Assembly: GCA_034439655.1 (NCBI GenBank)
Contig: JAWXAU010000161.1
Span: 1 to 44,675 of the forward strand
Direction: 5' to 3'
From: Bacteroidota bacterium
GTDB taxonomy: Bacteria > Bacteroidota > Bacteroidia > UKL13-3
DNA length: 44,675 bases
Positions 1 through 37,404 of the stretch are shown here, in pieces; positions within the stretch are counted from its first letter, which is position 1; the number at the start of each line of letters is the position of its first letter. Under the pieces are notes generated by a model. That model was not told where the DNA came from and did no database searches. It was given only the letters and a program-made list of their open reading frames with translations. Position numbers and translations under genes: made by a program.

Positions 1-3000
1 ATATACTTTGAATTGACTACCTATTTTAAGATTGCTAATTGGGGTTGCAGCAATAGCACCGTATAAGTTCAATGTGCCCGCTGTGCTGCTGCTATTATTA
101 AGTGCTCCCCCTGTAGTAATTAAACTACTTGAAGCGGTAGTTGTTGTTCCAATAGTTGCATTAAATCCATTCAAATCAAGCACTCCAGAATCCAACATAA
201 GTGCACCGTCGCAGGTTAAGTTTCCGCCTAGTCGAACACCTTTGAGCCTGTGAATGAATATAGTTCCCTTTGTTTGTACACGTAGGCCTACGACTTTGGC
301 TGCCCCAGTATCTCCCAACACGCTAAGCATTCCTACAGCAGTGGTATTCATCACGTTGCCAGTACCATATATTGCAATACTATCAGTACTGGTAAATGTA
401 CCTAAATTTAAATTAACCCCTTGATAAGTAAGTGATCCTGGGTTTAGACCTAAGTTGCCGGTAACGGTCATATTACTGACCGCACGAACAGTAAAAGCAG
501 AAACGAATTCTATGTTCTTATATATATTACTAGTTCCTGCAATACTTTGAGATGCAGTGCCAGCAAATACCATTTTACCTGTACCAGTATGGGTCCCATT
601 ATTCATAATGTCTTTAGCAATAGTTATTACATTACCACCATCGTTTAATATAGTACCCGTTCCAATAAACAGCTGGTTATTGATCTTGGAATTTCCTTGC
701 AGTGTATAAGTACCCACACCATTAATCGAAAGCACTACATGCGTATCTGCGGGAATTGATTGTGGAGTGTATAAAGTTAGTGATCCTCCTACGTGATCGA
801 GCATGCCATATCGATAATAATTGCGAACAACATATAGCGTTCCACCAGCTACAATGGTAACGGTTGCACCTGTATCAATAGTGATATCTTTACCGTAACT
901 AGCCCCAGTTACCCAAGGCATAAAGGTGGCAATAGCTGGTATTCTCACGTTATCTGCAGCAGTAGGCACACTATTAGATGCCCAGTTTGAAGGATTATAC
1001 CATAGTGTAGAGAAACCTCCTACCCAATCGCATGGGGCTTGCAGTGATACTTTATAATCTTCTGTTTCCCCGTTTGCAAATGAGGCACAAGCGTCGGCGG
1101 CTGTTATTACAGTGTTTGTATCTACTGTTCTAATACGCATTCCTGCAGTTCCTGCTGTTACTGAAGCAGGCATAGTAATATCATAGGTAATAGCGACACT
1201 TGAAGCAACATTTGAGCTAATTAATGTATATTCTGATATATCATAAATTCCATTGCGGTTATAATCTATCCACATAACCACCTTTTGAGGTTTTGCAGAG
1301 TTTGTAAAGGTGAGTGTGTAGTTATTATTTCCTCGCAAATTGGTGGTGCGTGAACTTAAGTTAGAGGTAAAATAATTGGACCATGAACTATCACTAGTGC
1401 TTGAACAACCCGAACCGGTATTATTAATAGTACCTAATTGCACACCGTCAATAAAGCCAAGCCCACAGCCAGTAACATGCACAGGGCTGCAATAGTAAAC
1501 CATCCTATCGCCCACAGCGGTTTTAGGAATAGGCATTTTTACGTTACTATTAACAGTTAAATAATCAATATATGCATCTATTTTATTGCCTATTGGAGCA
1601 GTTGGAGAAACTGTATAGCTCAACCAGAAATAGTTATTTCCGGTACCCAATGTAACTGGTGTGGTAAAGTTTACCACTACATATCCATTCGGGCTTGAAA
1701 CAGTAGAACCTACTTGTGTGGCAGTGTTATATATATTGTTGTTGCTTGTAAAGAATATTTTAGCGTTCACCAAGTCAGCCACATTGGTAGTTCCCGCAGT
1801 AACAAAACGTATATTATTAACTACTAGAGGTGTAATGTTGCCTGTTGTTACCACTTTCAAACGCAATACTTCAGCATCATTAGTGCCACGCAATACATTG
1901 CTCAGGTTATTTTGGGTCACATTGCTTGTAACATAACTCATTGCGGCTTGGTTGTATACATTGATATTATCAATATCTAGATAATAGTTGCTTGTAGTTG
2001 ACCCAGTTGTTTTACCTACCAATCTTAAGATTACATTCTGACCACTATACGATGAAATACTGGTCAATATTGTAGTAAATGAAGTTGTAGCAGTGTGATT
2101 AGACGCATTAATCGAAGAAACAGAATTATAAGTCACTCCGCAATCTGTTGATATTTGCAATAAAAGAGAATCTTCAGACGTTAATGTAGTAGCACCACCA
2201 CCCGAAACATCTGTTATTTTATAATCAAACTGTATAGCTGAAGTAGCACTTAAAGCTCCTACTTTGGGCAGTATTGCCAGACCATTTAATGTAGCACTGT
2301 TGTTGTTAATTCTAATCCCATTGGTGCCCATAGCCCCTGTTCCGCTACCAACGCTGAAACCTGTTGCGAGTGTCCAACCTGATGGGGTTGATGTGCTTGC
2401 ATTGAAGTCTTGCGTGTATGGCAAGGCCAATGGAGCTACCACTGCGATTGTTTGAATTAAAGTATCATCAGTATGTGTTACATCTAAAGCGTATATAGTG
2501 TACGATTTGAATATGTAATTACCAGTAGTACTCATATTAAACGTGTTTGTTGGAGTTGCATTAAGAGAGTCTCCAGGAAGCATTGTTCCGCTAGCTAAAG
2601 TTACATCGGGCAATGAGACAATTGAACCACCGGGTATTGTGACTTTAGTTCTAACAATCACATTATTAATAGCCATTTTAACTGTATCATAACCTAAATT
2701 TTTGAACCTGAACGAAACTGTTTGGTTGGGACCATAAATGCAACTTGTACCAGGCGAAAGCATTGCTGTTACTCCTAAATTATCGCCTAATTGGTTGATA
2801 ATAATAGATGAAGTTGAATCGTTTGAAGCAGTACCATCACATATCTGTGTCCATGCTTTCATGGTGTGAGTAGTGTAAGCACCCACGTTGGCGGTAGCTG
2901 TAAATGTGAATAGCTGTGAATCGCCCACGTTAATTGATGAAACAGTAGTTAAATTCTGTATACTAACAGTTACCCCATCAACAATAAATCCAGCTTTAAA

Positions 3001-6000
3001 GTTAGTTCCTGCAGGAACTGTTATTGTGGAGCTATAGTTTTTCACCCAAACCTTTACCAGTTCTGTACTAGTTCTATTCAAACCACTTGTAGGTGTTTTA
3101 ATCGATGATACGCCCAAGTCAAAGTTCATGTTGAATTCATCTGCTCCAATATCAGGAGTGCTACCACTTCTTGTTTCACCATCAATATCATTGGTAGTAC
3201 CTACTGCTGTTCCTTTATTGTTAACTTCACAATAATCGGAATTGATATTAAGGTTACCATTAACAGCATCCTTAAAGAAGTTAGAGGCTATCACATTTGT
3301 TGTTGTATTTGCACTTGTGTTGCCTGAACCATCTGAAACATTTATAGTCCATGAGCTAAAGCCATGAGTTGTTGTTGTTCCAGAAACGTAGAATGAATTA
3401 GAAGTATCTGCACTCGCAAAGAAGTTATACAAGCTTGTTGTAGATGACCAAGCAGTAGGTATGGTATATATATAATTTGTTCCTGCTGATGTGTGGCTGT
3501 TATATAATATATTGTTCCTAATATTTAAAGTAGATCCGCTGCCAGCCCTGCCAAATGCAGTTGATCCTGCAACGATTCCACTTTGTGACCCCGCAATATA
3601 TACTGTATTATAATGATAGTTCTGTGTGTTTGTTGAAGTATTGTCAGAAATACCTATCATACTATTTGTGCTTGAACCATTTTGAATTAATGAAATTTGG
3701 TTGTTTGCAACTGTAACGCCATTACCCAAACTATTGTATATACCCGATATATTTGTAAAGGTACCTGTATTAGAACTATTAGATAGTGCATATACTTTAT
3801 TTCTGCTCACTTGCGAACCTGTCCCACTATTGTTATAGAATATACCATACATTGAAGTGTTACCTTTAAATGATGACAAATTGCTAACTGTATTTCTCAA
3901 TATTTCAGGATTACTTTGTGTTGTGCCGCTACTTAAACCAATACCAATAACTGATGCTGATATTCCTGTCGACACATTAGAGTCGTTAGATGCCAGATAA
4001 GATACATTATTGGAATCTATCTTAAAGATTGCTGTACTGGCAGCACTACCAGCCACAATACCAAAAGTATTATTGACAGCACTTGATCCAGTATAACCAT
4101 TATATAAACTGTTAATTGAATTACTTCTTATGTAATGTATGTGAGACGAACCATTTGGGTTTGCTTGTATACCTCCCACTAAAGTTGCACCAAAGCTACC
4201 ATTTTCATTTTGTAAGCTATTAGAAATTTCATTGCTTCCTATAAAGTTACTATCTATATAACAAGTAGTGTTTGCACCATTACTTAATTGTTGAATAGCT
4301 ATTACTTCATTTACTGTAGTTGAAGAGCTATTTACATTTTTAAATGATAGGCCAGCAACCATGTTATTCTTGATTTTACAAGAGGTAATTCCACCCAATA
4401 TACGAATACCGTTAGTACGCTGTCCGCCTGCACTATTATATGCTATCACCTCAATATTGGCCGCCAAACTGCTATCGCCTACTATATTACCTGTAGCAGG
4501 GCCGTCTCCACCAATTTCCACATTACCTACTGAAACCAATATACCTAAGAATCCACTAGCAAGGCCGACTGAATAATTGGTATGTACTTTCATGTCTTTA
4601 AGAACATTTGAATATAACTTAAGCGTTGTTGTGCTACTTGTATTGCCAATACGAATTGGTAATACTTGGTTTAACTGACCTGAAACAACGGAGGCATCTC
4701 CAATTTGATATACAGACCCACTAATACCGGCTATATTTCCTCCAATGCGATTGCCCTGGATTAAATGGCCAACCTCAGTAGCTGAATTAACAAGTATTGA
4801 GGTAAGGTTAGAGGTTACTGCACCCACTGGTAAATTAATAGATGTTTGTGTAAATTTATTATCCAAGACATTCCAATAGCGGTTATTGCCCTGCATTGAT
4901 AATGCAGATACCGTTGTAGAACCCGGAAGGAATGCATTCAAGAATATATTATTGTTGATTGTAATATAATCATTCTCTTTGGCCGCTGTTCCCAAGGCAT
5001 ATATATGATTGGCAGTATTGCCTGTTGATTTATCAAACAGACAGTATTCTACAGTATTGCTATCGTTGCCAATAGTACCATTAGTTGTACCGATAGTAAC
5101 AGTACCTACACCAGCAGAAGTATTGCTATACATATTGCAATAACGAATAGTGTCTCTAACGGCATCATTGATAAAGTTGACTGCAGCGAATGCAGAACTC
5201 GTTTGAGTTAAGTTCATTATTCTGCTTGTTCCTGTTCCTCCAGCACGTCCATCAAATTTAACATACTTAACACCGTTTAAATTAACTAAGTGGCCAGTAA
5301 AAGAATTAATCCATACACCTGTATCGCCTGACGCAGGTCTAAACGTTACAGTTGAAGTTGGACTTGCCCCTGGAATTTGTCCACTGAAAACTATATTTTC
5401 AGTATACTGCCCATCAGAAATATCTACGATTATATTACCCGATATACCACAACTGTTCAAACGTGATGCGGCAGAACTAATGGTAGCAAAATTGGTACTG
5501 CTCACAGCAACTGCTGGGTTAACAGTGATAGTTCCAGTAAATGGCGTACAATAAATATTCTGCAAAGTGTCGTTTGAATTATCTTGGTCACTATTTCCAC
5601 TATTCATAGTAGTACTATATACTTTGAGTGTAGAAGAACCTGAAGGGAAAGTTAAACCTGTAGTAAAGGTATAGGTAGCAGTATCGCACGCTGCCAATGC
5701 GGTACTTGGTGTAAAGGTTTCCGACACTGCACTTGAGCCTGTAACCATATAATTCAATACCACACTAGAAATAGTAGTAGAACCATTGTTTTTAATTCTT
5801 ACTTTTATATTGTAGTTAGTCGATGCTGAAATTGAAGTTGAAACAGGTATCAATATGGTTTGTAAAGCAATATCATAAGAGAGCGGAGTAAATTCATCGG
5901 CCCCAAAATCGGGAGTGGTTGAGCGAGATTGTGCATCAATATCAACCGCCATAAGAGTGCTTAAATTAGTTCCGAAATTATTCATACATGCTTTATTGGT

Positions 6001-9000
6001 AACATGTAAATCGCTGGTCGATAGAAAATCAGGTCTTATATTTTTAGAGTTCGCATCTCTTGAGGAAGCTGTTCTCCATGTGCCGATGGTAGCATAACCT
6101 GTTGTTGAATAATATCCTAAGTTAGTACCTGTTGTAAACAAATCATTATAATCGCAAGTAGGGTAATAAGTATTATTGTCCATTCTAATAGCGGCTGCTC
6201 CATTGAGACCTGCAAAAATATTGTTTTGAATCGTATTAGTACCATAAACTGTTGCGGCAAAGTAGCCAGCAGCTGAAGTATTAGCATTTGATGATGTACC
6301 ATTGCTAACGGTATTATATATATAATCTACTCCATTTCCATACTGGTCATATAATCCATAAGTCGCATTGGAGCCAGTACCTATCTCAATAAAATTGTTA
6401 GCTACCAAATATCTACGAGCAGCAGTCACACTGGAGTTAACACCCATATAATAACAGTACATGCCATAACCGCCTTGTCCACCACTTATTTTATTACCAG
6501 TGATGTATGTTTTGCTCGCATCAGCAAGTACCATAATCCAGTAATTATACATACCATAATAAGTTGCCAAACTTGAGTTTGTGGTTATTCTATTATTGGT
6601 AATTTTAATACCATCTAGATATTGGTGATACATTCCATAAGCATACTGGTTGGTAAAATCGCAATTGTTAATACCCGTTCCTCTAGAGGATGCACCAAAA
6701 GAATTACTGCTAGAAGATTGGATATACGTACCATAAGCCCCATTGTTTATCCTGCAGGTGTCAAAATATACAAAGTTCGAAATACTTGAACTAGGTATTG
6801 TTATTACAGCCAAGTTTGTAGAATTGGTAGTGGTTGAAACACCGTTCAAGGTGACATTATAGAACGAGTCATACGATGCTCCAGAACTAAGCAATAACGC
6901 GGTACCATACGTTGAGTTGGTTGCCGTAATGGTCATATTTTTAAAGTATATGTATTTACTTGCTATTAAACCTACTGTATAGTTATTTGTTGAGGTTCCG
7001 CTGTAAGTAATTACTACATCGCTAGGAACAGAAGTGGCTGATTGAAATACAATTTGATTGGTGGCCGAAGCTCCTACAATTGTTGGGATAATAAGCTGTT
7101 CTGTGTAAACACCTGTTGACACATTGAAAGTAACGAGTCCGCCTAATCCACCACATTGAAGTGCCGCAGATGCGGCAGTAAAGCTAGTATAATTTGTTGT
7201 GCCGCTTCCAGATGGATTAATAGTATAAGTACCATTTAAAGCAGGGCATAGTGTAAATTGACTTGTGTCATTATTTGTAACCGCATCACCTGATTTCGCA
7301 GTATACACTTTTAAGTTATTAGAGCCAATAACAATAGTTGCTTGTGTTGTGAATGTAATAGAAGAAGTATCACATTGTTGTAAAGCTGGAGAGAAAGAGA
7401 ATGACTGTGAAACAACTGAATTACTGTTCAATTTATAGTAAACAGTCAAACTCGACAACGAATCTGAACCAAAGTTCTTGATTAGAGCAACAACATTTTG
7501 AGTACCTGCTGACAGGGGGAAGGACGGAGTGACAATTGCTGATACACCCACATCATTCGCTACACCTGTGTATTCGTCTGCACCTATATCTGGCATGCTG
7601 CTTCTGGTTTGTCCATCTATATCAGTAGTAACTCCTAAATTCACGCCATTGTTGCAAGAGTTAGTTATATGTAAATCAGTAGAAGAAGCAAAAGCAGGTA
7701 ATTGATATGAAGAACCGGTACCAGCTCCATTGGGGAATGCCGCCGATGCCAAATTGCCTGATTGGTAAGTATTTCCTCCAATACGAAGAATATCAACGCC
7801 TGTTCCGTACAAGATGTTGTTATTGAATATAGAAACCGCAGCGGTATTATTAATATCAGCAGCAAAATTAGAACCACCAGTTTGGGCATTGGCCATGATA
7901 TTGTTACGAACATCAATAGTATTTGTACCACCCCATACCGAGAAACATGCACTTGAGTTCGCTGTACCCGTCATATAGAATGAGTTGTTGTATATTTTCC
8001 AATTCTGCCCATACATATTGATACAACCTGCTGTACTAGTATTATTCCAAGAACCGCCAAAGAAGTTATTGGTAATTTCGCCAGAAACTCCTGCACTAGC
8101 ACCACCCTGAGATGTCAATATATATATATGGTATTGGCCTGTGCGTATGAAGGTATTACCTTTAATTTCATGATAGAACCCAGTGGCAGGCGTGCCGTTA
8201 ATTAAATAAATACATGATGAATTTGCATTGCCTGTAGCTAATTGAAATGTATTGTTCAGTATTTTGTTGGATGACATACTGCTACTATTTTGGTATACGC
8301 CATAGTAATATGAATTTTGGAAGTAGTTGTTTCTAATATAGTTTACAACAGAACCATTATTCCCAGCATGGTAAACACCATAATACCCCGATGAAATTCT
8401 ATTTGAATCTAAATAGTTATTATTACAGTTTGACGTAGTGCTAAAAGAACTAGAAGAACCGCTAAATACTGCACCTGCTGCACTACTACTGGTTGGGGCA
8501 TTGGTAATATCCACCACGCAGCTTCCTACTTTATTATTGTTTGCATTATTAAAGTAAACAGGAACCGCGTATGTTGCACCTGTTGCACGAATTCTCATAT
8601 TTCTAAAGGTTACATATTGGCATCCGTTAAACAATACTGTATGTGTGGTTGATGCTGATGAACCAGCAAAAGTTAAAATAGTATTGGTTGTATCTGTACC
8701 CACAAAAGTAACAGTGTTTGTTGCCGAAGTTCCGTTAATTGCTCCAATTGAAACTTGCTCGCTGTAAGTGTTGCCTGATACGTTAAATGTTATTGGACCA
8801 GCTACACCACCGCAGCCACTTAGTATATTAACCACTCTGTTAAAGCTCTTGAAATTTGTTGAACTATTTGCCTGTGTGGTATCAATTGTATAAGTACCGC
8901 TTAATCCTGCACAGATTGTAAAAGTGAGCGTATCATTACTTGCATTACCCTCTGACGCTGCAACTGCAAATACTTTAAGTGTATTTGTGCTGCCCGAAGA

Positions 9001-12000
9001 AATTGTTATTTGATTTCCACCTGTAAATGTCTTTGATGAAGTGTCAAGCGGCACGAGCGTACCAGAATAACTTGTAGTAACAGCCGAGCCTCCGTTAAAG
9101 ATATAACCAACTGTTCCTGAGGTAACATTGTTGGCCCCAAAGTTTTTGAATCTTACTGTTACATCAAAAGTGCCGGCCAATGTAGGTAATGAAGGCGATA
9201 CTAATATACTTGCTCCAAGGTCATTATTTACAGGCACTTCGTAAGCACCGATATATGGGGTTGTTGAACTGCGGCTACGTCCATCTATATCATCAGAAAT
9301 GCCAGTACCAGTAACTCCAGCTTTAAGTGTTGAAGTAGTATGTCTTAAATTAGTGCTACTTGTAAATGATGGATTAATGTTTTTAGAGTTTGCACCTACA
9401 GTAGTATAAGTTGAAGTAGTATATGTAGTACCATTATGATATATAAGGTTGGTAGATGCCGCACTAAAATAATCATTATAATTGAAAGTACTAAGACCTG
9501 TAATAGTGCCAAAATAAACTGGCAAACCTGAACCTGAACCTGCCGTATAGGCAAAAATATTGTTACGCATATTGGTAGGAGCATAAGAATAGCTAGGGTC
9601 TACATAGAAGGCACTGTATATAGCCGATGATGTAGCTACGTCTAAGTTCACCGTATTATAATCTACATCCCAATGCTGTCCGTATGCTAAGTAAATTCCT
9701 TGAGCAGATGTGCTACTAAATCCTCCCCCTATCATATTGTTAAACATCTTACCAGGGGTAGTGGATGCATTTTGGAAAGCGTATATATAATAGATTCCGT
9801 ATTGCCCTGCATTGGTTACCGTATTATATGAGATTTCGCAATTGCTTCCTCCATAACAATAGTTAATACTCAAACCTGAACTTGAAGCATATCCTGTACG
9901 CATGGTGATGGTATTGCGTGAAATTGTAAAGGATGAGTTGGCGTAAATATATAATCCATATTGGTAAGTGTTGGAAATGGTGTTGTTCCTTGCATACCAT
10001 TTTGTAGCATTATAATTTACATTACAATACAAATACATTGCAGTATTTCCACCAGATATGGTATTACTATCAAGTTCAAAACCTGTAGCAGTTGATTGAC
10101 CTCCTGTAACACCTGTGGTGCTGTTGTTTAATACAATACCGCAGAAATTAGTACTGGTCGAATTGGTTCCATTGCTTCCTCCATAATTAATAATACAGCT
10201 TTTAACTTTTGAGTTGTTTGCTGCATTACCTAGTATATGAACTGGCCATCCATAGGTAGTTCCCGTAGCTTGAATAGTAAGATTTCTAATTATAACACCG
10301 GGTGTATTGTTAATTCTTATTGTGTATGAACTTGCTTGAGCGGAGGCTGCAAAGTATATCGTTCTATTTGCTGCATTTCCAGCACCACCATCAAAAGTAA
10401 TGGTATTGGTTGTACTGGCACCCTGTATACTTAGCAGTTCTACTTGCTCATTATAAGCAGTAGCCCCCATTACGGTAAAGTTTACTGGGCAGCTTATGCC
10501 ACCTGAGTTCAAACTGTTTACTGCATTTAAGAAGCTGGTGAAATTTGTAGCAGATGCCGCTGCCCCTTGGTTGATGGTATAACTGCCGCATAACGCAACA
10601 CCTATTGGCGATGAAGTAAACGTATCATTTGCTGCAAACGCATCTGAAACTCCATTGGGTGAAGCAGTAAAGGCCTTAATTATATAACTTGTATTTGCTG
10701 CGAAATTAAATTGGTTACCACCTGTAAATGTATAAGTACCTGTACCACCATTAGCAGCTAAAGAAATCGAAGACAATGCTACCGAAACCGCACTACCTCC
10801 ATTCACACTATAGCTCACGTTTGCCGAAGTAACGGTATTTGCTCCATAATTTTTAAGAGTTACTGTGATATTATTATTGCCCGCAGTAACTGGGAAAACA
10901 GGAGCTGTAATAACAGAAATACCTATATCATTATTTTGTGCGGGGGTTTCATAAGCTCCCATATCTGTTGATGAGCCGCGAGAAGTTCCACTGTAGTCAG
11001 TTCCAACAGTAGTAATTTTAGGAGCATTATTGGCTGCATTGCCCACATGCAAATCTGTATTTGAAGTAAAATAGGGGTTCCCGATCACCGAATTGGAATT
11101 ATTACCTGCATCGCCAATAACAGTTGATGAGGTAAGATATGTTCCCGCATTATAACCATAATTTGTAGTAGATGTTGCACCCTTTACATATAATAAATTG
11201 TAATCAAAAGAAGAGGATCCGATTACTGCATATAGATATCCATTAGGCATATAGAAAGGCATGGCTGTTGAACCAGTGGCCGTTACTGCCAATAAGTTAT
11301 TTCTGACATCAAGCGTGGTGGAGCCTGTAGTACAACAATTTCCTAGATATAAACATGCTGAACTTGTTGAGGTTGCTGCAAAATCTAAATTGATTGTATT
11401 ATGGAATACATCCCAATTGTAGGCAGAATTTGAGAAATATATTCCATTTAAGCCCGTACTTCTAAATCCACCACCTATTAGGTTATTATACAGCTTACCT
11501 CTGCTTGAAGCATGGGCACCCGTCGATGCCAAGAATATTCCATATTGGCCAGCATTCGTTATTTTGTTCCTTTGTATAGACCACGAGTTTGTTGAGGCCA
11601 AAGCATTAGCACTACTTATATATAAACCCGTACTTGATGTCAAGTTCGTGTTCATATTAATAATGTTTCTATCAACTATGCCCCCATTGATTCCTTGTAG
11701 GTAGATTCCATATTGGTAAGCATTATTACAGCTATTACCAGTAAATTGATTGCCTCCGGTAGTTGAGTTATTTGCATCGTATGCTATAATATTTGCATAA
11801 CCGCCTTGTATCGTATTTGAATCAATAATGACATTATTAAATCCTCCGGTAGCACTATAACTTGTAGCACTACCATTTAAAACAATACCTTGATAGTTCG
11901 TACTATTAAAACTAGATATTGCTGTTGAGCCAAAATCAACAATACAATTTTTGATGGTATCATAACTTGATGAACCCATTATTTGAACTGGCCAAGCATT

Positions 12001-15000
12001 GGTACTTGTGCCGCGTATAGTCAAGTTTTTAACGATAATATAGCTCTGATCCTTTAAACGAAGTGTATAAGGCAAACTAGCGGTGCCCGCAGCTTGTAAT
12101 ATGCGGTTTGCTGCATTGCCCGTTCCACCATCAAATGTAACTGTATTGGAAGCCGACAAACCTGGAATGCCTGACAAATCAACCTGCTCAGTATATGGCG
12201 TTGTGCCCATTACTGTAAATGTTGTTGCACAACTAACACCCGTTGCCACTAGTGTTGACACAGCACTGTTAAAACTCACGAAATTACTTGACGATGCTGC
12301 AGCTCCTTGATTGATGGTAAAGTTTCCACAAATAGCTACTGCGGTGGTGGGTGAAATAAAGGTATCGTTTTGACTAAAAGCATCTGTTACACCATTGGGT
12401 GATCCAGTATAGGTTTTGAAAACATAGTTGGTGCCCGATGAGAAATTAAACTGATTTCCTCCGGTAAAGCTGTAACTCATAGTAGCACCCGAAGCTAAAC
12501 CCATTGATGTTAAAGCTACCGTTACCGGACTTCCTCCATTCACACTATAGCTCACATCGGCAGTATTAACCGTATTGGCACCATAGTTTTTAATAGTAAC
12601 AGTCACATTGTTATTACCTGCCGATATTGGAGCAGCTGGTGCTGTCATGGCTGTAATACCAAGGTCATTATTGAGTGCGGGAGTTTCATAAGCCCCCACG
12701 TCGGTACTCGATCCGCGGCTAGTTCCGCTATAGTCAGCTCCAACAGCGGTAATTTTAGGCACATTGAATGAAGTGATACCTATATGCAAATCGGTATTTG
12801 AATAAAGATATGGATTGCCTATAATTGAATTGGTGTTATAGCTGCTGTTGCCTAGCACGGTAGAGGCCGTCAGCAGTGTGCCGGCATTATAGCCATAGGT
12901 GGTTCCTGCATTTGCTCCTGCAACATATAGAAGGTTATAATCAAAAGATGATGTTCCAATCACTGCATAAATGTAGCCGTTCGGCATGTAAAATGGAACT
13001 GCCGAAGACGCAGAATTCGTGACTGCAAAAATATTGTTCCTCACATCAAGCAGAGTTGCACCCGTTGTGCAGCAATTGCCCATATATATACAAGCTGCAG
13101 AGGTGGAAGTGGCCGCATTATCAATATTTACTGTGTTATGCATCACGTCCCAGTTATAAGCCGAACTCGAAAAATAAAGTCCGCTCGGATTTGTATTTCT
13201 GAATCCACCACCTATCAAGTTATTATATATTTTACCGCGACTTGTGGCATTGGCTGCTGTAGAAGCGAGGAATATTCCATATTGGCCCGCATTGATAATA
13301 CTATTCCTTTGTATAGACCATGTATTAGTAGAAGCCAATGAATTTGCACTACTCAAATACAGACCAGAACTTGACGCCAAATTTGTATTCATGTTGATAC
13401 TATTTCTATCAAATGTACCTGCATTGATTCCCTGTAAATACACCCCGTACTGATAAGCATTGTTACAAGCGTTGCCTGTAAACTGGTTACCACCTGTGGA
13501 AGAGCTATTATTCGCATAAACCATAATATTGGCAAAGCCTCCTTGTATCGTATTTGAGTCAATTATGATATTACCAAAAGTGCCTGCGGTACTATATGAG
13601 GTGGCGTTGCCGTTCAGAACAATACCCATATAGTTTGTACTATTAAAACTTGCAACAGAAGTAGAGCCAAAGTCAATGATACAATTTTTAATAGTATCGG
13701 CAGTAACTGTGGAACTGGCTAATATATTAACTGGCCATGCATTACCACCGGTACCACGAATAGTCAGATTCTTAATACTTATATAGCTTAAATTATTAAT
13801 ACGAATAGTATAAGGTAAACTTGCTGTACCACTTGCTTGCAAAATACGTGTAGCAGCATTTCCTGCACCTCCATCGAATGCTAGGGTATTGGTAGATGAC
13901 AGGCCAGAAATACCTGTTAAGTTTATTTGCTCAGTATAAGTACCTGCTGCAACTGTAAATTTAACTGGTCCGCTTATACCACCACAAGCTGTGATAGCTG
14001 TAACCGCAGAAGTAAATGAAGTAAAATTACTTGCACTTGCAGCAACTGAAGGGTTAATAGTAAAGCTAGTTCCGCTTATACCACCTGTGCAAGTCGTAAA
14101 TCCAGTAGTATCATTGGTTTTATCATTATCAGTATTTCCATTAGGGCTTTGTGTGAAAGCTTTCAAATAGTGCAGTCCAGAAGCTACCGTCAAACGTTGG
14201 TCAGTTGAACCAGGTCCGCTCGTAGAATTGAAAGTAAGCTGCAAGGTATCGCAAGGATTCATAGTTGAAGGTAATGACAATGAAATTGCTGTATTATTAT
14301 CATATTGATACTTAATAGTACCTGATGTTACTGAGTTATTCCCGACATTTTTTATAGTTACAACTACATTAGTAAGTCCTGTACCTACAGTTGGTATGGG
14401 AGTCCTAATAGCCACAACCATTAAGTTGTCGCTCAAACTAGAAAATTCGTATGCACCCATATTGGGTGTTGATGAGGAACGCGTAACACTATTAATATCA
14501 GTTGTAATTCCTGTTCCACTTACCCCTGTTAAACAGCCGTCCGATATATTCAAATTAGAAGGTGCTGAAACAAAAAGTGGGGTCTTGTTGCTACTATTAG
14601 CATTCTGCGTTGTGCCCGCTGCTGTCGACATTGCAGAGGCAAAATTTGCGTAGGTTGTTCTTGCCGTTCCACTTGTTAATGCTATATTGGTACCTGTGGT
14701 TGTGTAGTTGTTATAATCCATCACATTAGCTGCAGAGAAAGTATTTCCTGCAGGAACTACTACTGAATAACCCGCAGCAGCATTGCTAAACAAATTATTT
14801 TTAATATTAAAGTTATTATTGCTTGCGAAATATAAACATCCACTCGTTGTAAGTGAAGTTCCAGATATGTTCACAGTATTATGATATAAATCAATATAAC
14901 TGCAGCTCTGCACATAAATACCATAGTAGCCATTTGTTCCTCCTCTTATTGCATTATTAGCAATAGTGATTCTATTGGTACTAGTTCCTGTAACACTAGT

Positions 15001-18000
15001 AAAGTAGATACCATAAGATGCTGCACCACTTAGGGTGATATTGTTGCCAAGTACTTTAATTGCATTGCCTGCATTCGCGATATACATACTGTAATAAGCA
15101 GTAGCTGAACTTGTGTTAAATGTATTGTTCAATATATTAATACTGTCGGAATAATTTAAATAAACTCCAGCGTAATATTGATTGTTAAAAGTATTTCCCG
15201 ATATCACCCATTTTTGATCTCGTGTACCGTTGGTTGCCATATACATGGCATATCCAACAGCATTAAAGGTATTATTACTAAAAGTATTAAAATTATCTAC
15301 AACACTCTGCTCATACACATGATAGTTGGAAGTATTTTGGGTACTATTAAATACACAACCATTAAATGTATTGCTATTTGATCCTCCTGTAAATTCTACA
15401 TTTCTAGCATTTCCTGAGGTGCTGGTTAAGAAACCTATATTGTTGAAGGTAACATAATCTGCACCCGCCATTTGAACTGAGTAAGTGGCAGTGCTTAATC
15501 CTTGGATTATACATAAAGCAGGGTTACCCGATGCTGATGTAAAAGTGATTGTATTGCTGCTAGAGGTATTACCTGGAATGGAAGAAAGCGAAAAGCTTTC
15601 ATTATAAGTACCGTTTGACACAGTAAAAGTGACGGTACTGCTCATACCGCCGCAGGTTAAAGCACTAACTGCACTTGTAAATGATGTAAAGTTTGTTGAC
15701 GATGCCGCCGCTCCTGGGTTAATTGTATAGCTACCGGTTAAAGTAGTACAAATTGTAGCTTGAGCTGTATCGTTTGACAAATTACCATCACCACTTAAAG
15801 CTGTGTACACTTTTAGGGGACTACTACCGCCAGCTAGAGTAATGGTTGTTGAAAATGTAACCGTTGCTGTATCGCAAACGGCTAAGGCCGTTCCAAAATT
15901 AAAAGTCTCTGAAACTGCTGACCCTCCATTGTACTTATAATAAACCGTTAAACTTGAAACCGATGCAGTACCGAAATTTTTAACGATTGCCTTTACAGTT
16001 TGAGAAGAACCTGAAGTTAATGTTCCTGATGGGCTGGTAATAAAAAAGACTCCAACATCATTAGACGAGGTGGCACTGGCAATTTCATCTGCCCCAATAT
16101 TAGGTGTGCTGGCACGGCTTTGTCCATCAAAGTCAGTGGTAATAAGTCCTAAACCACCAACACCTCTTAAACAATAAACTCCCATGTGCAAATCTGTACT
16201 AGAGGTGTATAAAGGATTAAGGTTTTGGGAGTTTGCATCCTTACTTGTTGCTGTTTTCCAGGCTCCCAAAGTTGTATAAGCTGAGCCACTCAAGTAGCAA
16301 AGATTGGTTCCAGTTGTATAATAGTTATTATAATTAACTGTGGTGTAATAAGTGAAATTGTCGAACCTAATTGCTGGTGCCCCGTTATAGGCAGCAAAAA
16401 TATTATTTTGAAAAGTACTAGTACCTGTAGAACCACCAGCAAACCAACCTGCCGCCGAACCATTTGTTGTTTGCGAAGTTCCTATATTTACAGAATTATG
16501 TACATAATCTGTTCCATAGGTACCCTGTTCAAATATCCCATAGGTGCTATTTGCAGCGGAACCAATTTGTATAAAATTATTTGCCACCAAAGGCTTTCGG
16601 GCACTATTCACGCTTGAATTTACAGCTAAATAAGAATTATACATCCCATATCCACCTACGGCTCCAGTTATCTTGTTACCAGTAATTAATATTTTATTCG
16701 TGTCTGCCAGCACCATAACCCAATAGGTGTACATTCCAATATACGAAGTAAAAGCAGAGTTCGTCGAAATCCTGTTTTTGGTCAATTTAACACCATCCAA
16801 ATACTGATTATATATTCCATAAGCATACTGATTGGTAAAATTACAATTATTAAACATCGTTCCTTGAGAAGTCGCATTGATTGTACTGTTGCTATTTGAA
16901 GCAATATAAGACCCATAGGCTCCATTATTAATGCTACAGGTATCGAACCTCATATTGTTTGAAATATTGGCAGTATTATATCCATTTATAACCGCATGGT
17001 TTGGGGTATTACTGGAAGTAGTAACGCCATTAAATATCACATTGTAAAATGAATCATATCCAGCACTGCTTCCAAAGGCAAGAGCAGTTCCATAAGTAGT
17101 ATTACTTGCCGTAATAGTCATATTAAAAAATCTAATGTATTTAGCTCCCGAAAGATTAACTGTATAATTCGCCGTAGAAACAGTAGACGGAAAAGTTAAA
17201 ATACGGGTACTAGCATTTCCACTACCTCCATTAAAGGTAATTGTATTGGTGGCGGATGCTCCTGTGATAGCTGGTATTGTAACTTGTTCAGTATAAGTAC
17301 CTGCAGAAACATCAAAAACAACTGGGCCTGATATCCCGCAATTAATTAGTGCACTATCTGCTTGGCCAAATCTTAAAAAATTACTTGATCCACTTCCAGA
17401 GGGGTTAATCGTATAAGTACCGCTAAGACCTGTGCAATAAGTAAAAGTTCTGCAAATAGTATCGTTTGCGGCTGTTTGAGTTCCATTTCCGTTTACATTA
17501 TTTAACCACATTTTTAAGGTATAGGTTCCTACACTTGAAATGTTTAATTGCGTTGAAAAAGTAGCAGTATAGATTCCGCCAGAGGCAACTGAAAGGCTAC
17601 TTAAAGATTGTGTAACAGCAGAATTATTATCTAATTTATAACCGATATCAACTGATGTCATATTCGCGTTCGTTAAATTAACCATCGAAAATGCAATTGT
17701 ATTATTTCCCGACACAAAACTTGCGGGCGATGTAAAAGTATTAGCAGAAGCATCGCCGGTAGAAGCAGGCACCAATAAATTGTAATCTTCGCATTCCGAT
17801 GAATATGCCAAAACGCCACAAGGTCCAGGAACATTGTTAGAATAATCAGCTATTACACGTAATCTGTACACACCATTGCCTTGACCCGAAGGAACTGTGA
17901 AGCTGTCCGTAGTAACACTACTAGCATTAACGAGGGAATAAGTATTTATCAATTCACTTCCGGAGGTATTAAATGTTCCATCAAGATTATAATCCACAAA

Positions 18001-18363
18001 TACCTTTATGGTTGCTTGATAGTTGGAAGCATTTGTAATTGATAACCCCACTTTCACACCAGCAGCTGCTTTCACAGTTTGTGTTGAATAGTAATTGTAA
18101 ATACCAGCAGCACCCACAGTATTTGCAGAGGTGGTATTGTTAATTTGGTTGGTGACAGCAGCAGTACCAAACTTGACATTAGTCATTCCCATACCATACC
18201 CCGCGTTATTTGAAGCAGTGGGTGAACAATAACTGGGGGCTGTGTAACACTGCGAAAATGCACCTTGGTAAGTTGAGAGCAGCAATAAGATTGCAACTAA
18301 GCTCCGAATGCTTGATGATTTTTGCCAAAAGATGTTTTGGGCTTGTGTGTAGATGTGTTTCAT
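1..18363 (-). CDS. Giant secreted multi-module beta-helix surface protein (C-terminus outside window)
   Basis: A single open frame runs from an ATG at 18363 to the left edge, at least 6,121 codons with no stop; I checked the frame at seven landmarks across the gene. Residues 1-38 form a signal peptide ending GAFSQ. A GEVED domain follows (about 60-200, ending SECEDYNLLV). Eight modules of mostly 550-600 residues come next, each with a CARDB-like Ig spacer, a GTYTINPS-type opener, an Asn-rich right-handed beta-helix with RNNIF/HNTVN turns, and a closing (D)IDGxxRS...PDIGADE or GAYE motif; closers lie near residues 759, 1303, 1892, 2471, 3041, 3597, 4156 and 5075. The tail has two Ig-like domains, a jelly-roll-like domain, a BNR_assoc_N-like domain (about 5470-5620), a second GEVED (about 5635-5770, NGETEDYKV) and the start of another repeat region. 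Composition is rich in Ser, Thr, Asn and Gly. By family this is probably a T9SS-exported adhesin or surface-layer protein; the sorting domain, if any, lies beyond the window. Ligand unknown. Confidence 0.93.
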   Translation of the reverse strand, partial: MKHIYTQAQNIFWQKSSSIRSLVAILLLLSTYQGAFSQCYTAPSYCSPTASNNAGYGMGMTNVKFGTAAVTNQINNTTSANTVGAAGIYNYYSTQTVKAAAGVKVGLSITNASNYQATIKVFVDYNLDGTFNTSGSELINTYSLVNASSVTTDSFTVPSGQGNGVYRLRVIADYSNNVPGPCGVLAYSSECEDYNLLVPASTGDASANTFTSPASFVSGNNTIAFSMVNLTNANMTSVDIGYKLDNNSAVTQSLSSLSVASGGIYTATFSTQLNISSVGTYTLKMWLNNVNGNGTQTAANDTICRTFTYCTGLSGTYTINPSGSGSSNFLRFGQADSALINCGISGPVVFDVSAGTYTEQVTIPAITGASATNTITFNGGSGNASTRILTFPSTVSTANYTVNLSGAKYIRFFNMTITASNTTYGTALAFGSSAGYDSFYNVIFNGVTTSSNTPNHAVINGYNTANISNNMRFDTCSINNGAYGSYIASNSNSTINATSQGTMFNNCNFTNQYAYGIYNQYLDGVKLTKNRISTNSAFTSYIGMYTYWVMVLADTNKILITGNKITGAVGGYGMYNSYLAVNSSVNSARKPLVANNFIQIGSAANSTYGIFEQGTYGTDYVHNSVNIGTSQTTNGSAAGWFAGGSTGTSTFQNNIFAAYNGAPAIRFDNFTYYTTVNYNNYYTTGTNLCYLSGSAYTTLGAWKTATSKDANSQNLNPLYTSSTDLHMGVYCLRGVGGLGLITTDFDGQSRASTPNIGADEIASATSSNDVGVFFITSPSGTLTSGSSQTVKAIVKNFGTASVSSLTVYYKYNGGSAVSETFNFGTALAVCDTATVTFSTTITLAGGSSPLKVYTALSGDGNLSNDTAQATICTTLTGSYTINPGAAASSTNFTSFTSAVSALTCGGMSSTVTFTVSNGTYNESFSLSSIPGNTSSSNTITFTSASGNPALCIIQGLSTATYSVQMAGADYVTFNNIGFLTSTSGNARNVEFTGGSNSNTFNGCVFNSTQNTSNYHVYEQSVVDNFNTFSNNTFNAVGYAMYMATNGTRDQKWVISGNTFNNQYYAGVYLNYSDSINILNNTFNTSSATAYYSMYIANAGNAIKVLGNNITLSGAASYGIYFTSVTGTSTNRITIANNAIRGGTNGYYGIYVQSCSYIDLYHNTVNISGTSLTTSGCLYFASNNNFNIKNNLFSNAAAGYSVVVPAGNTFSAANVMDYNNYTTTGTNIALTSGTARTTYANFASAMSTAAGTTQNANSSNKTPLFVSAPSNLNISDGCLTGVSGTGITTDINSVTRSSSTPNMGAYEFSSLSDNLMVVAIRTPIPTVGTGLTNVVVTIKNVGNNSVTSGTIKYQYDNNTAISLSLPSTMNPCDTLQLTFNSTSGPGSTDQRLTVASGLHYLKAFTQSPNGNTDNDKTNDTTGFTTCTGGISGTSFTINPSVAASASNFTSFTSAVTAITACGGISGPVKFTVAAGTYTEQINLTGISGLSSTNTLAFDGGAGNAATRILQASGTASLPYTIRINNLSYISIKNLTIRGTGGNAWPVNILASSTVTADTIKNCIIDFGSTSVASFNSTNYMGIVLNGNATSYSTAGTFGNIIIDSNTIQGGFANIMVYANNSSSTGGNQFTGNACNNAYQYGVYLQGINAGTFDRNSINMNTNLASSSGLYLSSANSLASTNTWSIQRNSIINAGQYGIFLASTAANATSRGKIYNNLIGGGFRNTNPSGLYFSSSAYNWDVMHNTVNIDNAATSTSAACIYMGNCCTTGATLLDVRNNIFAVTNSASSAVPFYMPNGYIYAVIGTSSFDYNLLYVAGANAGTTYGYNAGTLLTASTVLGNSSYNTNSIIGNPYLYSNTDLHIGITSFNVPKITAVGADYSGTSRGSSTDVGAYETPALNNDLGITAMTAPAAPISAGNNNVTVTIKNYGANTVNTADVSYSVNGGSPVTVALTSMGLASGATMSYSFTGGNQFNFSSGTNYVFKTYTGSPNGVTDAFSQNDTFISPTTAVAICGNFTINQGAAASSSNFVSFNSAVSTLVATGVSCATTFTVMGTTPYTEQVDLSGIPGLSASNTVTFDGGTGNAANRILQAAGTASLPYTLRLKDQSYIIVKNLTIRGTSTNAWPVQIMGSSSYDTIKNCIVDFGSTAISSFNSTNYQGIVLNGSATSYSATGGFNNVIIDSNTIQGGYANIIAYDANNSTTGGNQFTGNSCNNAYQYGIYLQGINGGIVDRNIINMNTNLTSSTGLYISSANALASTNSWSIQRNKITNAGQYGIFLASTGAHASSRGKLYNNLIGGGFRSTGLNGIYFSNSAYNWDVFHNTINLDFAATSTSSACLYLGNCCTTGSTTLDVRNNLLAVTATGSTAMPFYMPNGYLYAVIGSSSFDYNLLYVKGATSTTNYGYNAGTYLTSSTVIGDAGNNSNSVIGNPYFTSNTDLHVGNAANNAPKITTVGTDYSGTSRGSSTDMGAYETPAQNNDIGISVITAPVFPVTAGNNNITVTLKNYGANTVTSANVSYSVNGGSAVSVALSSISLAANGGTGTYTFTGGNQFNFAANTSYIIKAFTASPNGVSDAFAANDTFTSSPIGVALCGSYTINQGAAASATNFTSFLNAVNSLNSGGISCPVNFTVMGATAYNEQVELLSIQGASTTNTITFDGGAGNAANRTIYFAASAQASSYTIRINNTPGVIIRNLTIQATGTTYGWPVHILGNAANNSKVKSCIINYGGSNGTNSTSTNFCGIVLNNSTTGVTGGQSTATGFELDSNTISGGNTAMYLYCNVNYNATKWYARNNTISNTYQYGLYIYANSSFTISRNTITMRTGYASSSGLSINYCYGGSNCEISYNTVTNAGQYGIYYIYAFQNASTTPGKMFNNMIGGGFSSTSAQGIYLAYGQHWDVDYNTVNLDVATSSAIYSAFYVDPSYSYAPTNMRNNIFAYTAGSGSGLPVYFGTITGLSTFNYNDYFSAASTNLIYHNGTTYTTSTYTTVGANSKNINPSFTSSTNLRHTTSTLKAGVTGTGISDDIDGRSRSSTTPYIGAYEVPVNNDLGASILVSPSLPTLAGTFDVTVRFKNFGANNVTSGTVGYIFNGGSAVTTSYSGTLVPLDTSSKTFTGGNQITISSGSTNTLKVFAVAASEGNASNDTLTFTICAGLSGTYTIDTTQANSSTNFKSFNRVVNILSGCGGVAGPITFNVSGNTYSEQVSIGAINGTSATNTVTFVGTDTTNTILTFAGSSASTTHTVLFNGCQYVTFRNMRIRATGATYAVPVYFNNANNNKVGSCVVDITNAPTSSSAAGAVFSGSSSSFSTTSNCNNNYLDSNRISSGYYGVYHAGNNGSVVNYIRNNYFQNSYYYGVYQNSSSMSSNKILNNTFQLATGNANSSCIYLINGTPATGFYHEIKGNTFIRTGQYHIYILTSQGGASAGVSGEITNNFFGGSWNNTSTAGCINMYGQNWKIYNNSFYMTGTANSSACFSVWGGTNTIDVRNNIMANAQTGGSNFAADINNTAAVSIFNNNILYGTGVDILRIGGNTYQSGNLASAAFPNGAGTGSSYQLPAFASSTDLHITNSCNNGVNLGVTTDIDGQTRSSMPDIGADEYTGVANDVGVSAIVTPSFPLSAGTQNVVALIKNFGSDSLSSLTVYYKLNSNSVVSQSFSFSPALQQCDTSSITFTTQATIVIGSNNLKVYTAKSGDAVTNNDTSQFTLCPALNGTYTINPSGSGTTNYTSFTAASAALQCGGLGGLVTFNVSTGVYTEQLIIPTIVGASATNQIVFQSATSVPSDVVITYSGTSTNNYTVGLIASKYIYFKNMTITATNSTYGTALLLSSGASYDSFYNVTLNGVSTTTNSTNLAVITIPSSSISNFVYFDTCRINNGAYGTYIQSSSSNSFGASSRGTGINNCDFTNQYAYGMYHQYLDGIKITNNRITTNSSLATYYGMYNYWIMVLADASKTYITGNKISGGQGGYGMYCYYMGVNSSVTAARRYLVANNFIEIGTGSNATYGLYDQYGNGVDYIYNTVSNGTSSNANTSAAGYFAATVYGTNTIQNNIFAGLNGAAAIRMDNNTYYPTCDYNDLFTTGTNLGYYSTTGYATIGTWRTASSRDANSKNIRPDFLSTSDLHVTNKACMNNFGTNLSTLMAVDIDAQSRSTTPDFGADEFTPLSYDIALQTILIPVSTSISASTNYNIKVRIKNNGSTTISSVVLNYMVTGSSAVSETFTPSTALAACDTATYTFTTGLTFPSGSSTLKVYSTTMNSGNSDQDNSNDTLQNIYCTPFTGTITVNPAVAVSSTNFATISSAASRLNSCGISGNIIVDISDGQYTENIVFSGQIPGASPTSTVTFRPASGDTGVWINSFTGHLVNLNGVKYVKFDGRAGGTGTSRIMNLTQTSSAFAAVNFINDAVRDTIRYCNMYSNTSAGVGTVTIGTTNGTIGNDSNTVEYCLFDKSTGNTANHIYALGTAAKENDYITINNNIFLNAFLPGSTTVSALSMQGNNRYWNVLDNKFTQTSINLPVGAVTSNLTSILVNSATEVGHLIQGNRIGGNIAGISGSVYQIGDASVVSGQLNQVLPIRIGNTSSTTTLKLYSNVLKDMKVHTNYSVGLASGFLGILVSVGNVEIGGDGPATGNIVGDSSLAANIEVIAYNSAGGQRTNGIRILGGITSCKIKNNMVAGLSFKNVNSSSTTVNEVIAIQQLSNGANTTCYIDSNFIGSNEISNSLQNENGSFGATLVGGIQANPNGSSHIHYIRSNSINSLYNGYTGSSAVNNTFGIVAGSAASTAIFKIDSNNVSYLASNDSNVSTGISASVIGIGLSSGTTQSNPEILRNTVSNLSSFKGNTSMYGIFYNNSGTGSQVSRNKVYALSNSSNTGTFTNISGIYNSLGNGVTVANNQISLIQNGSSTNSMIGISDNTSTNTQNYHYNTVYIAGSQSGIVAGSTAFGRAGSGSTLNIRNNILYNSHTSAGTNYIYTIPTAWSSTTSLYNFFASADTSNSFYVSGTTTTHGFSSWTINVSDGSGNTSANTTTNVIASNFFKDAVNGNLNINSDYCEVNNKGTAVGTTNDIDGETRSGSTPDIGADEFNMNFDLGVSSIKTPTSGLNRTSTELVKVWVKNYSSTITVPAGTNFKAGFIVDGVTVSIQNLTTVSSINVGDSQLFTFTATANVGAYTTHTMKAWTQICDGTASNDSTSSIIINQLGDNLGVTAMLSPGTSCIYGPNQTVSFRFKNLGYDTVKMAINNVIVRTKVTIPGGSIVSLPDVTLASGTMLPGDSLNATPTNTFNMSTTGNYIFKSYTIYALDVTHTDDTLIQTIAVVAPLALPYTQDFNASTSTPSGWTLATGFSVGSGTGAMGTNGIRINNNSATLNGLAILPKVGALSATSAIQFDYKITDVSGGGATTLTSEDSLLLQISTDCGVTYNSVSSINASNHTATTSFTTILTSISSYSGQNVILRLVGKTTGSTTSNYYLDIDNINVYNQAAMSYVTSNVTQNNLSNVLRGTNDAEVLRLKVVTTGNITPLVVNNIRFVTAGTTNVADLVNAKIFFTSNNNIYNTATQVGSTVSSPNGYVVVNFTTPVTLGTGNNYFWLSYTVSPTAPIGNKIDAYIDYLTVNSNVKMPIPKTAVGDRMVYYCSPVHVTGCGLGFIDGVQLGTINNTGSGCSSTSDSSWSNYFTSNLSSRTTNLRGNNNYTLTFTNSAKPQKVVMWIDYNRNGIYDISEYTLISSNVASSVAITYDITMPASVTAGTAGMRIRTVDTNTVITAADACASFANGETEDYKVSLQAPCDWVGGFSTLWYNPSNWASNSVPTAADNVRIPAIATFMPWVTGASYGKDITIDTGATVTIVAGGTLYVVRNYYRYGMLDHVGGSLTLYTPQSIPADTHVVLSINGVGTYTLQGNSKINNQLFIGTGTILNDGGNVITIAKDIMNNGTHTGTGKMVFAGTASQSIAGTSNIYKNIEFVSAFTVRAVSNMTVTGNLGLNPGSLTYQGVNLNLGTFTSTDSIAIYGTGNVMNTTAVGMLSVLGDTGAAKVVGLRVQTKGTIFIHRLKGVRLGGNLTCDGALMLDSGVLDLNGFNATIGTTTTASSSLITTGGALNNSSSTAGTLNLYGAIAATPISNLKIGSQFKVY
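5895..7245 (-). repeat. Beta-helix module 7 of the giant gene, close homologue of module 1
   Basis: This encodes residues of about 3710-4156, closing with PDFGADEF. Shared blocks with module 1 include MTITA.NSTYGTAL, DSFYNV, FDTC.INNGAYG and NFTNQYAYG-type segments. Module 8, which follows, is distinct and longer (about 920 residues). Confidence 0.8.
10948..12687 (-). repeat. Module 4 of the giant gene, tandem near-copy of module 3
   Basis: Same layout as module 3, closing with STDMGAYETP. The similarity is visible in the DNA as well as the protein, for example around 11460-11720 and 13200-13440. Module 5 (9240-10947) is a more distant relative of this pair. Confidence 0.85.
12688..14455 (-). 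repeat. Module 3 of the giant gene, tandem near-copy of module 4
   Basis: This encodes a CARDB-like spacer and a beta-helix closing with STDVGAYETP. It shares long runs with the adjacent module 4 (10948-12687), including LTIRGT, DSNTIQGG, GNQFTGN.CNNAYQYG, NNLIGGGFR, GNCCTTG and FYMPNGY. The two are the most similar neighbouring pair and fit a recent tandem intragenic duplication. Confidence 0.85.
16087..17430 (-). repeat. Beta-helix module 1 of the giant gene, close homologue of module 7
   Basis: This stretch encodes residues of about 310-760. Its protein matches module 7 (5895-7245) almost turn for turn: both carry MTITA.N.TYGTAL, DSFYNV, NNGAYG.YI, FTNQYAYG, QYLDG, MVLAD and QNNIFA in the same order and at similar spacing. 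The intervening modules are less similar, so 1 and 7 look like copies of each other separated by five other modules. Confidence 0.8.
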
Positions 18364-18960
18364 TTTATTTATTGGATTAGATTAATATTTTTTAATAATG
18401 GATATATAAAAGAGACATGTATTATGCATGCACAAAATCAGCAATTCCGTCAAGGGTTGCGTACTCTTCACTTTTAAATATTAATTTAAAAGTTAGTAAA
18501 AAAAAATTGAATATGAGCCGGCCCTAAATACAGATTGCTTAAAATGGCTCGCTACAAGAAAATACTTCGGAATTGCGTGTAGAAAATTTGTGACATTTAA
18601 TTAGATTGGATTAGATTGATTGACTTTAGATTTTTTTTCTATGTTTTTGCAAAAACACAGATTTTTTTTACTGCTGAAAGGAATGGACAAATTTAATTCG
18701 AAGAGTTGCTTACTAGTTGCTTGTTTATACAAATTAATAATAAACAGCTTATCAACATTAACCGACCTGGAATTAAGACTCCGTATTTTACAACCTTCTA
18801 TTTTTTAAACATTTACGACTTTTTCAGCTAAATCCTATCCAAAAAAGCAGTTTCACCAATTAGATAAATAGCATGATTTACTAGCTTATTGTGAGGAATC
18901 TCGTGCCCAATGATTCCTAAAATTTGTAACAAAATGTAAAACCTAGTTATTAAATAGCCT
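18364..18960. other. 597-bp intergenic region upstream of the giant gene
   Basis: This AT-rich stretch lies between the stop of the BtuF-like gene and the ATG of the giant gene, both on the minus strand, so it must hold any dedicated promoter of the giant gene. I find no full TAnnTTTG box on the minus strand; the closest is TGATTTTG about 70-80 bases upstream of the ATG, with one mismatch. A 62-codon plus-strand frame at 18620-18808 begins with TTG and has no recognisable features, so I do not call it a gene. Confidence 0.5.
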
Positions 18961-26365: not shown

Positions 26366-26384
26366 TTTTTTTAAATTTCGAGTG

Positions 26385-26392
26385 CAAAAATA
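26385..26392 (-). promoter_or_regulatory. -7 box (TATTTTTG) for the Calx-beta gene
   Basis: On the minus strand TATTTTTG matches TAnnTTTG and stands 19 bases before ATG 26365. It lies in the 56-bp gap after the M48 stop codon, showing that the Calx-beta gene can be transcribed separately from the genes upstream. No convincing -33 element was found. Confidence 0.6.
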
Positions 26393-26421
26393 ACAAAACA
26401 AGCCCATCTTTTTAAATGAAA

Positions 26422-35915: not shown

Positions 35916-36579
35916 CAAAGAATAAATTTACATGTTGTACTTTATCCATCAATTTTAGTTCTTTCACCAATACTTGGCTATTCTCTTCTTTTTTCAATTT
36001 TATATAATAAGACAATTCTAGGTATTGGTTATTCTCCTCGCCTAAGGCTTTTACATTTACCAAAGAATATTTGCGGCAAAATTTACTGATTACGGTGCTG
36101 GCATCAAAGCCATCGTCCGTTTTGGCACTCACCACCATTTGCAATAAGAAATCACGCTTACGCGGTGCCGACATGTTTACCTTAACCACCACATAGAACA
36201 CCAAACCCACTATAATAGTTCCCATTATGGCTACTTCATATATTCCTACGCCACTGGCAAGACCTATTGCTAAAGCAAAAAATACAAACATCATATCCTG
36301 CGTATCTTTCAATGCCGTTCGGAAACGTATGATAGACATTGCCCCCACCAATCCAAAAGCCGTCGCCAGGTTATTCCCGATAACCATTATAACCACAGAG
36401 GTAATCATGGTAAGCATGATCAATGAATTTACAAATGTGGTGGAATAACTAAGACCTTTATAAGTTTGTCGGTATACTATCGAAATCATTATTCCGCATG
36501 CAAGTGCTACAATTAAATGCAGCAGTACCTCGCGGAAAGTAAGTTGGTATAAATAAATGTCTTGTAATTGCTCATTCAT
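35905..36579 (-). CDS. DUF4956 membrane protein
   Basis: A 224-residue integral membrane protein. It has about four membrane helices (near residues 17-36, 48-68, 94-108 and 111-133) and a soluble C-terminal domain of about 90 residues. The family signature is the GLVGAMSIIRFRTALKDTQD block at about 76-95, followed by the hydrophobic AIGLASG. DUF4956 proteins are commonly found beside VTC-domain polyphosphate polymerases, as here, but their role is not established. I infer a membrane partner for the polymerase, comparable to the membrane domain in yeast VTC. I use ATG 36579, overlapping the VTC stop by 8 bases; a TTG at 36591 would add four residues. It is tightly coupled to the TolC-like gene. 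Confidence 0.9.
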   Translation of the reverse strand: MNEQLQDIYLYQLTFREVLLHLIVALACGIMISIVYRQTYKGLSYSTTFVNSLIMLTMITSVVIMVIGNNLATAFGLVGAMSIIRFRTALKDTQDMMFVFFALAIGLASGVGIYEVAIMGTIIVGLVFYVVVKVNMSAPRKRDFLLQMVVSAKTDDGFDASTVISKFCRKYSLVNVKALGEENNQYLELSYYIKLKKEENSQVLVKELKLMDKVQHVNLFFDEE

Positions 36580-37387: not shown

Positions 37388-37404
37388 TTTATAATTATCT
37401 AAAA

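Follow-up and report, generated by a model that had tools for sequence, protein, structure and literature searches.

The locus raises the question of whether a single minus-strand reading frame of more than 6,100 codons, which runs off the left edge of the 44,675-nt stretch of Bacteroidota DNA analysed here (hereinafter the window), is a real gene, and, if so, what its product, predicted from the bare sequence to be a modular beta-helix surface protein, might do for the cell.

A giant gene cut by the end of its contig

A listing of open reading frames in which open ends were allowed recovered a frame that begins with an ATG at position 18363 of the minus strand and continues without a stop through 6,121 codons to base 1, with a computed mass of 639 kDa for the visible part of the protein. 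The window corresponds to the entire contig C161 of a 3.5-Mb genome assembled in 205 contigs (G000, hereinafter the window genome); hence, the left edge at which the frame ends is the end of the contig itself. Given the base composition, a stop-free run of 6,121 codons has a chance probability of about 10^-183, and the remaining five frames contain 272-599 stops each, the longest open run among them being 129 codons. Because of these statistics, we conclude that the frame is a real gene truncated by the contig end. The sequence-only reading was thus accurate as to the single open frame of more than 6,100 codons, its extension to the window edge, and a mass above 600 kDa; its further contention that standard ORF callers needing a stop codon inside the window miss the gene entirely holds for such callers only, as the gene is listed once open ends are allowed.

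A complete version of the gene was found in a second genome of the same genus (MAG RH-26jul17-255, contig CANJUD010000009.1; hereinafter G002), where it is a closed, stop-terminated ORF of 6,420 aa, whose product is 68% identical to the window protein over 6,085 aligned residues. Across these 6,085 codons, dN is 0.25 and synonymous change is saturated (dS ~2.4), indicating strong purifying selection. Together with the stop statistics, the existence of this complete orthologue and the purifying selection rule out a chance or artefactual frame.

The last 68 residues of the G002 orthologue constitute a type A sorting domain of the type IX secretion system (T9SS), scoring 42.8 bits with TIGR04183 (cut-off 23) and 40.4 bits with PF18962 (cut-off 27); at thresholds up to E = 1, an NCBIfam search of its last 400 aa gave no match to TIGR04131, the type B sorting domain. 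The window frame ends ~283 residues before the end of the orthologue (window 4-351 corresponds to residues 1-116 of those last 400), and the full-length window protein would have roughly 6,400 residues. The earlier expectation of a stop and a T9SS sorting domain beyond the left edge is accordingly borne out in the complete orthologue, whereas the corresponding end is absent from the window assembly: other matches to the missing ~283 residues in the rest of that assembly are tails of different proteins, and we rejected them as sources of the missing C-terminus. Since this part is found nowhere else in the assembly, we infer from the orthologue, rather than see, that the window gene keeps a type A tail.

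The host genome codes for SprA (2462 bits), PorU (1217 bits) and PorV (476 bits), each over its curated cut-off, along with at least 150 type A tails. Thus, the T9SS export that had been proposed for the giant protein is supported both by the sorting domain of its orthologue and by the presence of the export machinery.

In G002, the giant gene and guaB are convergently oriented, with a gldJ-like gene, porU and porV coming after guaB (G002:C9:51116-81115). In the window genome, the guaB/gldJ-like/porU/porV cluster lies on contig C111, away from the giant gene and with cinA after guaB; therefore, rearrangement has affected the 3' flank, and proximity to T9SS genes is not a conserved trait of the locus. 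For the same reason, guaB was rejected as a bridge to the missing end. Upstream of the giant gene lies a gene for a periplasmic binding protein (PF01497), and the window neighbourhood revealed no obvious partner gene. A non-coding gap of ~600 nt ahead of the giant gene (window 18364-18960) is partly alignable to G002 and contains a conserved patch, AATCAATCTAATCCAA, of which a near-repeat lies beside the start codon in both species. Further along the window, the minus strand codes for a second T9SS type A cargo protein with three Calx-beta domains and a Por_Secre_tail (24143-26407) and for a cluster comprising an outer membrane efflux protein, two further ORFs and an HlyD-like protein (34635-38478), possibly an envelope export system. 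Searches of the window for RNA families and tRNAs recovered none.

Domain anatomy, predicted fold and conservation of the modules

The domain architecture of the window protein is given in Table 1. By eye, its N-terminus displays the typical features of a signal peptide, namely a stretch of basic residues, a hydrophobic core and the residues AFSQ-C, and that of G002 is similar. Both GEVED domains exceed the Pfam cut-off (24.4 bits for PF20009), as do Beta_helix (PF13229, 35.6 bits), CARDB (PF07705) and BNR_assoc_N in the same chain, and choice-of-anchor Q is over its NCBIfam cut-off once. Counting by motif and by an iterated profile of the beta-helix start both gave exactly eight beta-helix modules, of which seven are 553-583 aa long and the eighth is a divergent version of 810 aa; identity between modules is 26-43%, except for modules 3 and 4 (70%) and modules 1 and 7 (55%). 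The putative signal peptide, the two GEVED domains and the eight modules were all anticipated by the sequence-only reading.

Table 1. Features of the giant gene and its product, in window coordinates.
Feature	Position	Strand	Evidence and remarks
Giant ORF	1..18363	-	6,121 codons visible; 3' end (~283 residues) beyond contig edge
Putative signal peptide, residues 1-37 (MKHIYTQ...YQGAFSQ)	18253..18363	-	By eye; G002 similar
GEVED domain 1, residues 119-196	17776..18009	-	PF20009, 58.8 bits; 50.6 bits in second scan
CARDB-like linker ahead of module 1, residues ~203-309	17437..17757	-	Inspection; pattern as in other CARDB-like domains
Module 1: beta-helix, choice-of-anchor-Q-like segment, CARDB-like domain	15751..17436	-	Profile and alignment
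Module 2	14092..15750	-	Profile and alignment
Module 3: right-handed beta-helix and CARDB-like domain	12343..14091	-	Profile, alignment and model (pLDDT 79)
Module 4, 70% identical to module 3	10603..12342	-	Profile and alignment; DNA repeats of period 1,737
Module 5	8914..10602	-	Profile and alignment
Module 6, non-orthologous to G002 module 6	7249..8913	-	Profile; tree, AU test and identity drop
Module 7, 55% identical to module 1	5551..7248	-	Profile and alignment
Module 8, divergent and longer (810 aa)	3121..5550	-	Profile and tree; orthologous to last modules of G002 and G013
Two CARDB-like domains 3' of module 8, residues ~5082-5315	2419..3120	-	Inspection; well conserved in G002
Possible jelly-roll domain	1978..2253	-	PF21471, 17.7 bits (weak, below cut-off of 27)
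BNR_assoc_N, residues 5489-5606	1546..1899	-	PF14873, 42.7 bits (cut-off 25)
GEVED domain 2	1048..1281	-	PF20009, 69.5 bits
C-terminal beta-rich region, running into missing end	1..1047	-	65% identity to G002 over last 116 visible residues

An AlphaFold2 model of module 3, built from an alignment of 14 modules (pLDDT 79), shows a right-handed beta-helix followed by a CARDB-like domain. Structural comparisons of this model recovered alginate epimerases, polysaccharide lyases and phage tailspikes (Z 23-29 over ~300 residues), including the A-module of AlgE6 (5lw3; Z 29.4, rmsd 2.8, 325 residues aligned), with the lacto-N-biosidase LnbX also among the best matches; the CARDB-like part matches 3idu (TM 0.59 by target). 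A search of PDB sequences with the module alignment returned nothing significant. The proposed modular beta-helix architecture is therefore upheld by profile searches, the module tree and structure prediction, the last for the one module modelled. A model of the C-terminal 1,040 residues, based on two sequences, reached a pLDDT of 36 and was set aside.

We then compared 82 modules drawn from the giant proteins of nine genomes, whose length is 566 +/- 14 aa. The ladder asparagines at positions 230, 263, 290/291, 319, 352/353 and 386 are conserved in 99-100% of these, and the invariant residues of the helix body are these asparagines and glycines, with a lone aspartate (178) at 87%. No catalytic-type set (acid, base, histidine, lysine) is conserved in the helix body across the 82 modules, and charged residues account for only 7.9% of it. 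The combination of invariant ladder asparagines, a scarcely charged body and the lack of a conserved catalytic-type set points to modules that are probably structural or binding elements, rather than ones sharing a single enzymatic role.

Distribution of the giant genes and exchange of modules

Homologous frames of more than 5,000 aa, extending up to 6,985 aa, were found in at least nine of the 35 genomes of the family that were searched, and the giants read in the family have 7-10 modules each, some copies being cut by contig or fetch ends. Consequently, the earlier description of the length as striking is somewhat overstated: at least eight other genomes of the family have frames of 5,000-7,000 aa, and SprB, at 669 kDa, is just as large (PMC9143113). 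By eye, the complete ORFs that were read end in type-A-like tails, the profile test having been applied to G002 only. Of 247 genomes across the phylum, 41 yielded the module type at E <= 1e-20; among the matches listed, the frames are shorter, mostly 400-3,000 aa, and the longest outside the window genome has 4,019 aa. The window genome also has a second giant frame of 4,262 aa (G000:C3:1-13000) with at least eight GEVED and 13 BNR_assoc_N domains, which likewise runs off the end of its contig; the stretch where it does so shares 38% identity with the C-terminal part of the window protein. Contig ends tend to truncate giant genes of this kind, these two being examples.

In a tree of the modules, a subgroup of four genomes (G010, G021, G018 and G016) displays one-to-one conservation of module positions. 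Modules 1, 2, 3, 5, 7 and 8 of the window protein pair by position with those of G002, and module 4 has no settled place in the tree. The module 6 copies behave differently: their placement as a sister pair is rejected (p-AU 1.7e-7, a value to be read in light of the pair having been picked after the tree was seen), and the G002 copy clusters with modules that come first in other giant genes, from another genus. Identity between the two proteins, computed in blocks of 250 aa, also drops locally, to 39-47% in the blocks that end at residues 3500 and 3750. On account of the rejected pairing and the affinity of the G002 copy to first modules from another genus, we conclude that a non-orthologous module has taken the place of module 6 in one of these two species. 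Such a replacement between close relatives offers a natural experiment in how giant surface proteins shuffle their domains. It further suggests a more speculative scenario, to which we assign a small probability, wherein the 7-10 beta-helices of a chain would present different glycan-binding (or processing) sites in series on one rod, and species would adjust their specificity through the swapping of single modules among giant genes, making the protein a recombining polysaccharide-recognition fibre.

Alternative functions and comparison with known systems

With moderate confidence, we favour a giant surface fibre exported by the T9SS, probably a long-reach adhesin or a cell-cell/biofilm fibre, on a par in size with the largest such proteins known. 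Following the known route of type A cargo (PMC9143113, PMC12618676, PMC10994853), the ~6,400-residue protein would enter the periplasm via Sec, cross the outer membrane through SprA, be collected by PorV by means of its type A tail, and then be anchored to the surface, or released, by PorU. Outside the cell, the eight beta-helix modules, with CARDB-like domains connecting them, would form a long stiff rod with the N-terminal GEVED region at its far (distal) tip. If each helix has ~13 rungs spaced 0.48 nm apart and each CARDB domain adds ~4 nm, arithmetic from the module model and general knowledge predicts a rod of ~80 nm for the eight modules. Length, a repeated stalk and a surface anchor are the key features of fibrillar adhesins (PMC9210967), and a very long chain with repeated stalk domains is what we observe here (6,121+ codons, eight modules). 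An adhesive role is favoured because CshA-type fibrillar adhesins carry GEVED alongside ligand-binding domains, GEVED itself not having been shown to bind (PMC10952558). Against the fibre or adhesin count the missing tail of the window gene, the lack of an adhesive domain of known specificity in the chain by Pfam (near the N-terminus there is only GEVED), and the pLDDT of 36 at the C-terminus, as do the potential for release of type A cargo and the prevalence of the fold in polysaccharide-active enzymes.

The last two of these points each correspond to an alternative. Some type A cargo is indeed freed (AmyB and, in part, RemA; PMC12618676), and the giant protein could likewise pass into the medium as an unanchored matrix or soluble fibre. 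Release and anchoring cannot be told apart from a type A tail in the sequence here; however, the genome encodes PorU, the protein responsible for attachment of type A cargo in Porphyromonas (PMC9143113), and we consider release fairly unlikely. The structural matches of module 3 to alginate epimerases, polysaccharide lyases, LnbX and phage tailspikes, in turn, are what would be expected if the modules were polysaccharide-active enzymes (lyases, epimerases, hydrolases) strung into a secreted or surface-held degradation array. Yet the shared beta-helix fold alone does not decide function, no enzyme family of Pfam or NCBIfam matches the modules, and joint comparison of the 82 modules uncovered no conserved catalytic-type set in the helix body, all of which render such an array unlikely.

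A further alternative, which we regard as distinctly improbable, is a SprB-like motility adhesin carried along the surface by the gliding machinery. It would be in keeping with the size class of SprB (669 kDa, PMC9143113), with the proximity of the G002 giant gene to guaB, the gldJ-like gene, porU and porV, and with the GldJ-like protein of the host genome; however, the latter reaches 413 bits, short of the curated cut-off (458), and that neighbourhood is lost in the window genome, where cinA follows guaB. Moreover, the type B tail of SprB is what brings it to the gliding machinery, and SprB fitted with a type A tail, the kind borne by the G002 orthologue, was immobile or released (PMC12618676), although gliding can still involve an adhesin with a type A tail, as RemA illustrates (PMC12618676).

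The window protein exemplifies a family-wide class of probable T9SS cargo that combines the length of SprB with whole beta-helix domains and, in the one copy tested, a type A tail; it thereby offers a test case for the handling of cargo this large by SprA, PorV and PorU. We found no paper on this stalk architecture in a literature search that mostly lay outside subscription journals. The same module type is seen in the right-handed beta-helix proteins of Bacteroidota with choice-of-anchor Q segments (NF041518), but among the matches listed these are mostly of 400-3,000 aa with few modules, as opposed to eight in one chain. Giant1-5 of Apilactobacillus kunkeei (PMC12863079), which span 3,000-8,000 aa, are likewise surface proteins that contain beta-solenoid parts and whose sequences have been exchanged across genera; unlike the window protein, they belong to a Gram-positive bacterium, are differently anchored, and have the beta-solenoid at the N-terminal end only. 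SprB of Flavobacterium johnsoniae, the T9SS gliding adhesin, is similarly a giant repetitive T9SS cargo from Bacteroidota of about the same mass; compared by description, it differs in having a type B tail and the cognate SprF (PMC9143113), in contrast to the type A tail of the window gene's orthologue. With the CshA-type GEVED fibrillar adhesins (PMC10952558, PMC9210967), the window protein shares a putative signal peptide, GEVED, a long repeated stalk and, in its orthologue, a C-terminal surface-targeting signal; its stalk differs in being made of whole 566-aa beta-helix/CARDB modules, and no known ligand-binding partner of GEVED is detected by Pfam. As far as its anatomy tells, the window protein resembles a fibrillar adhesin, with a predicted sorting signal that is not of the SprB type.
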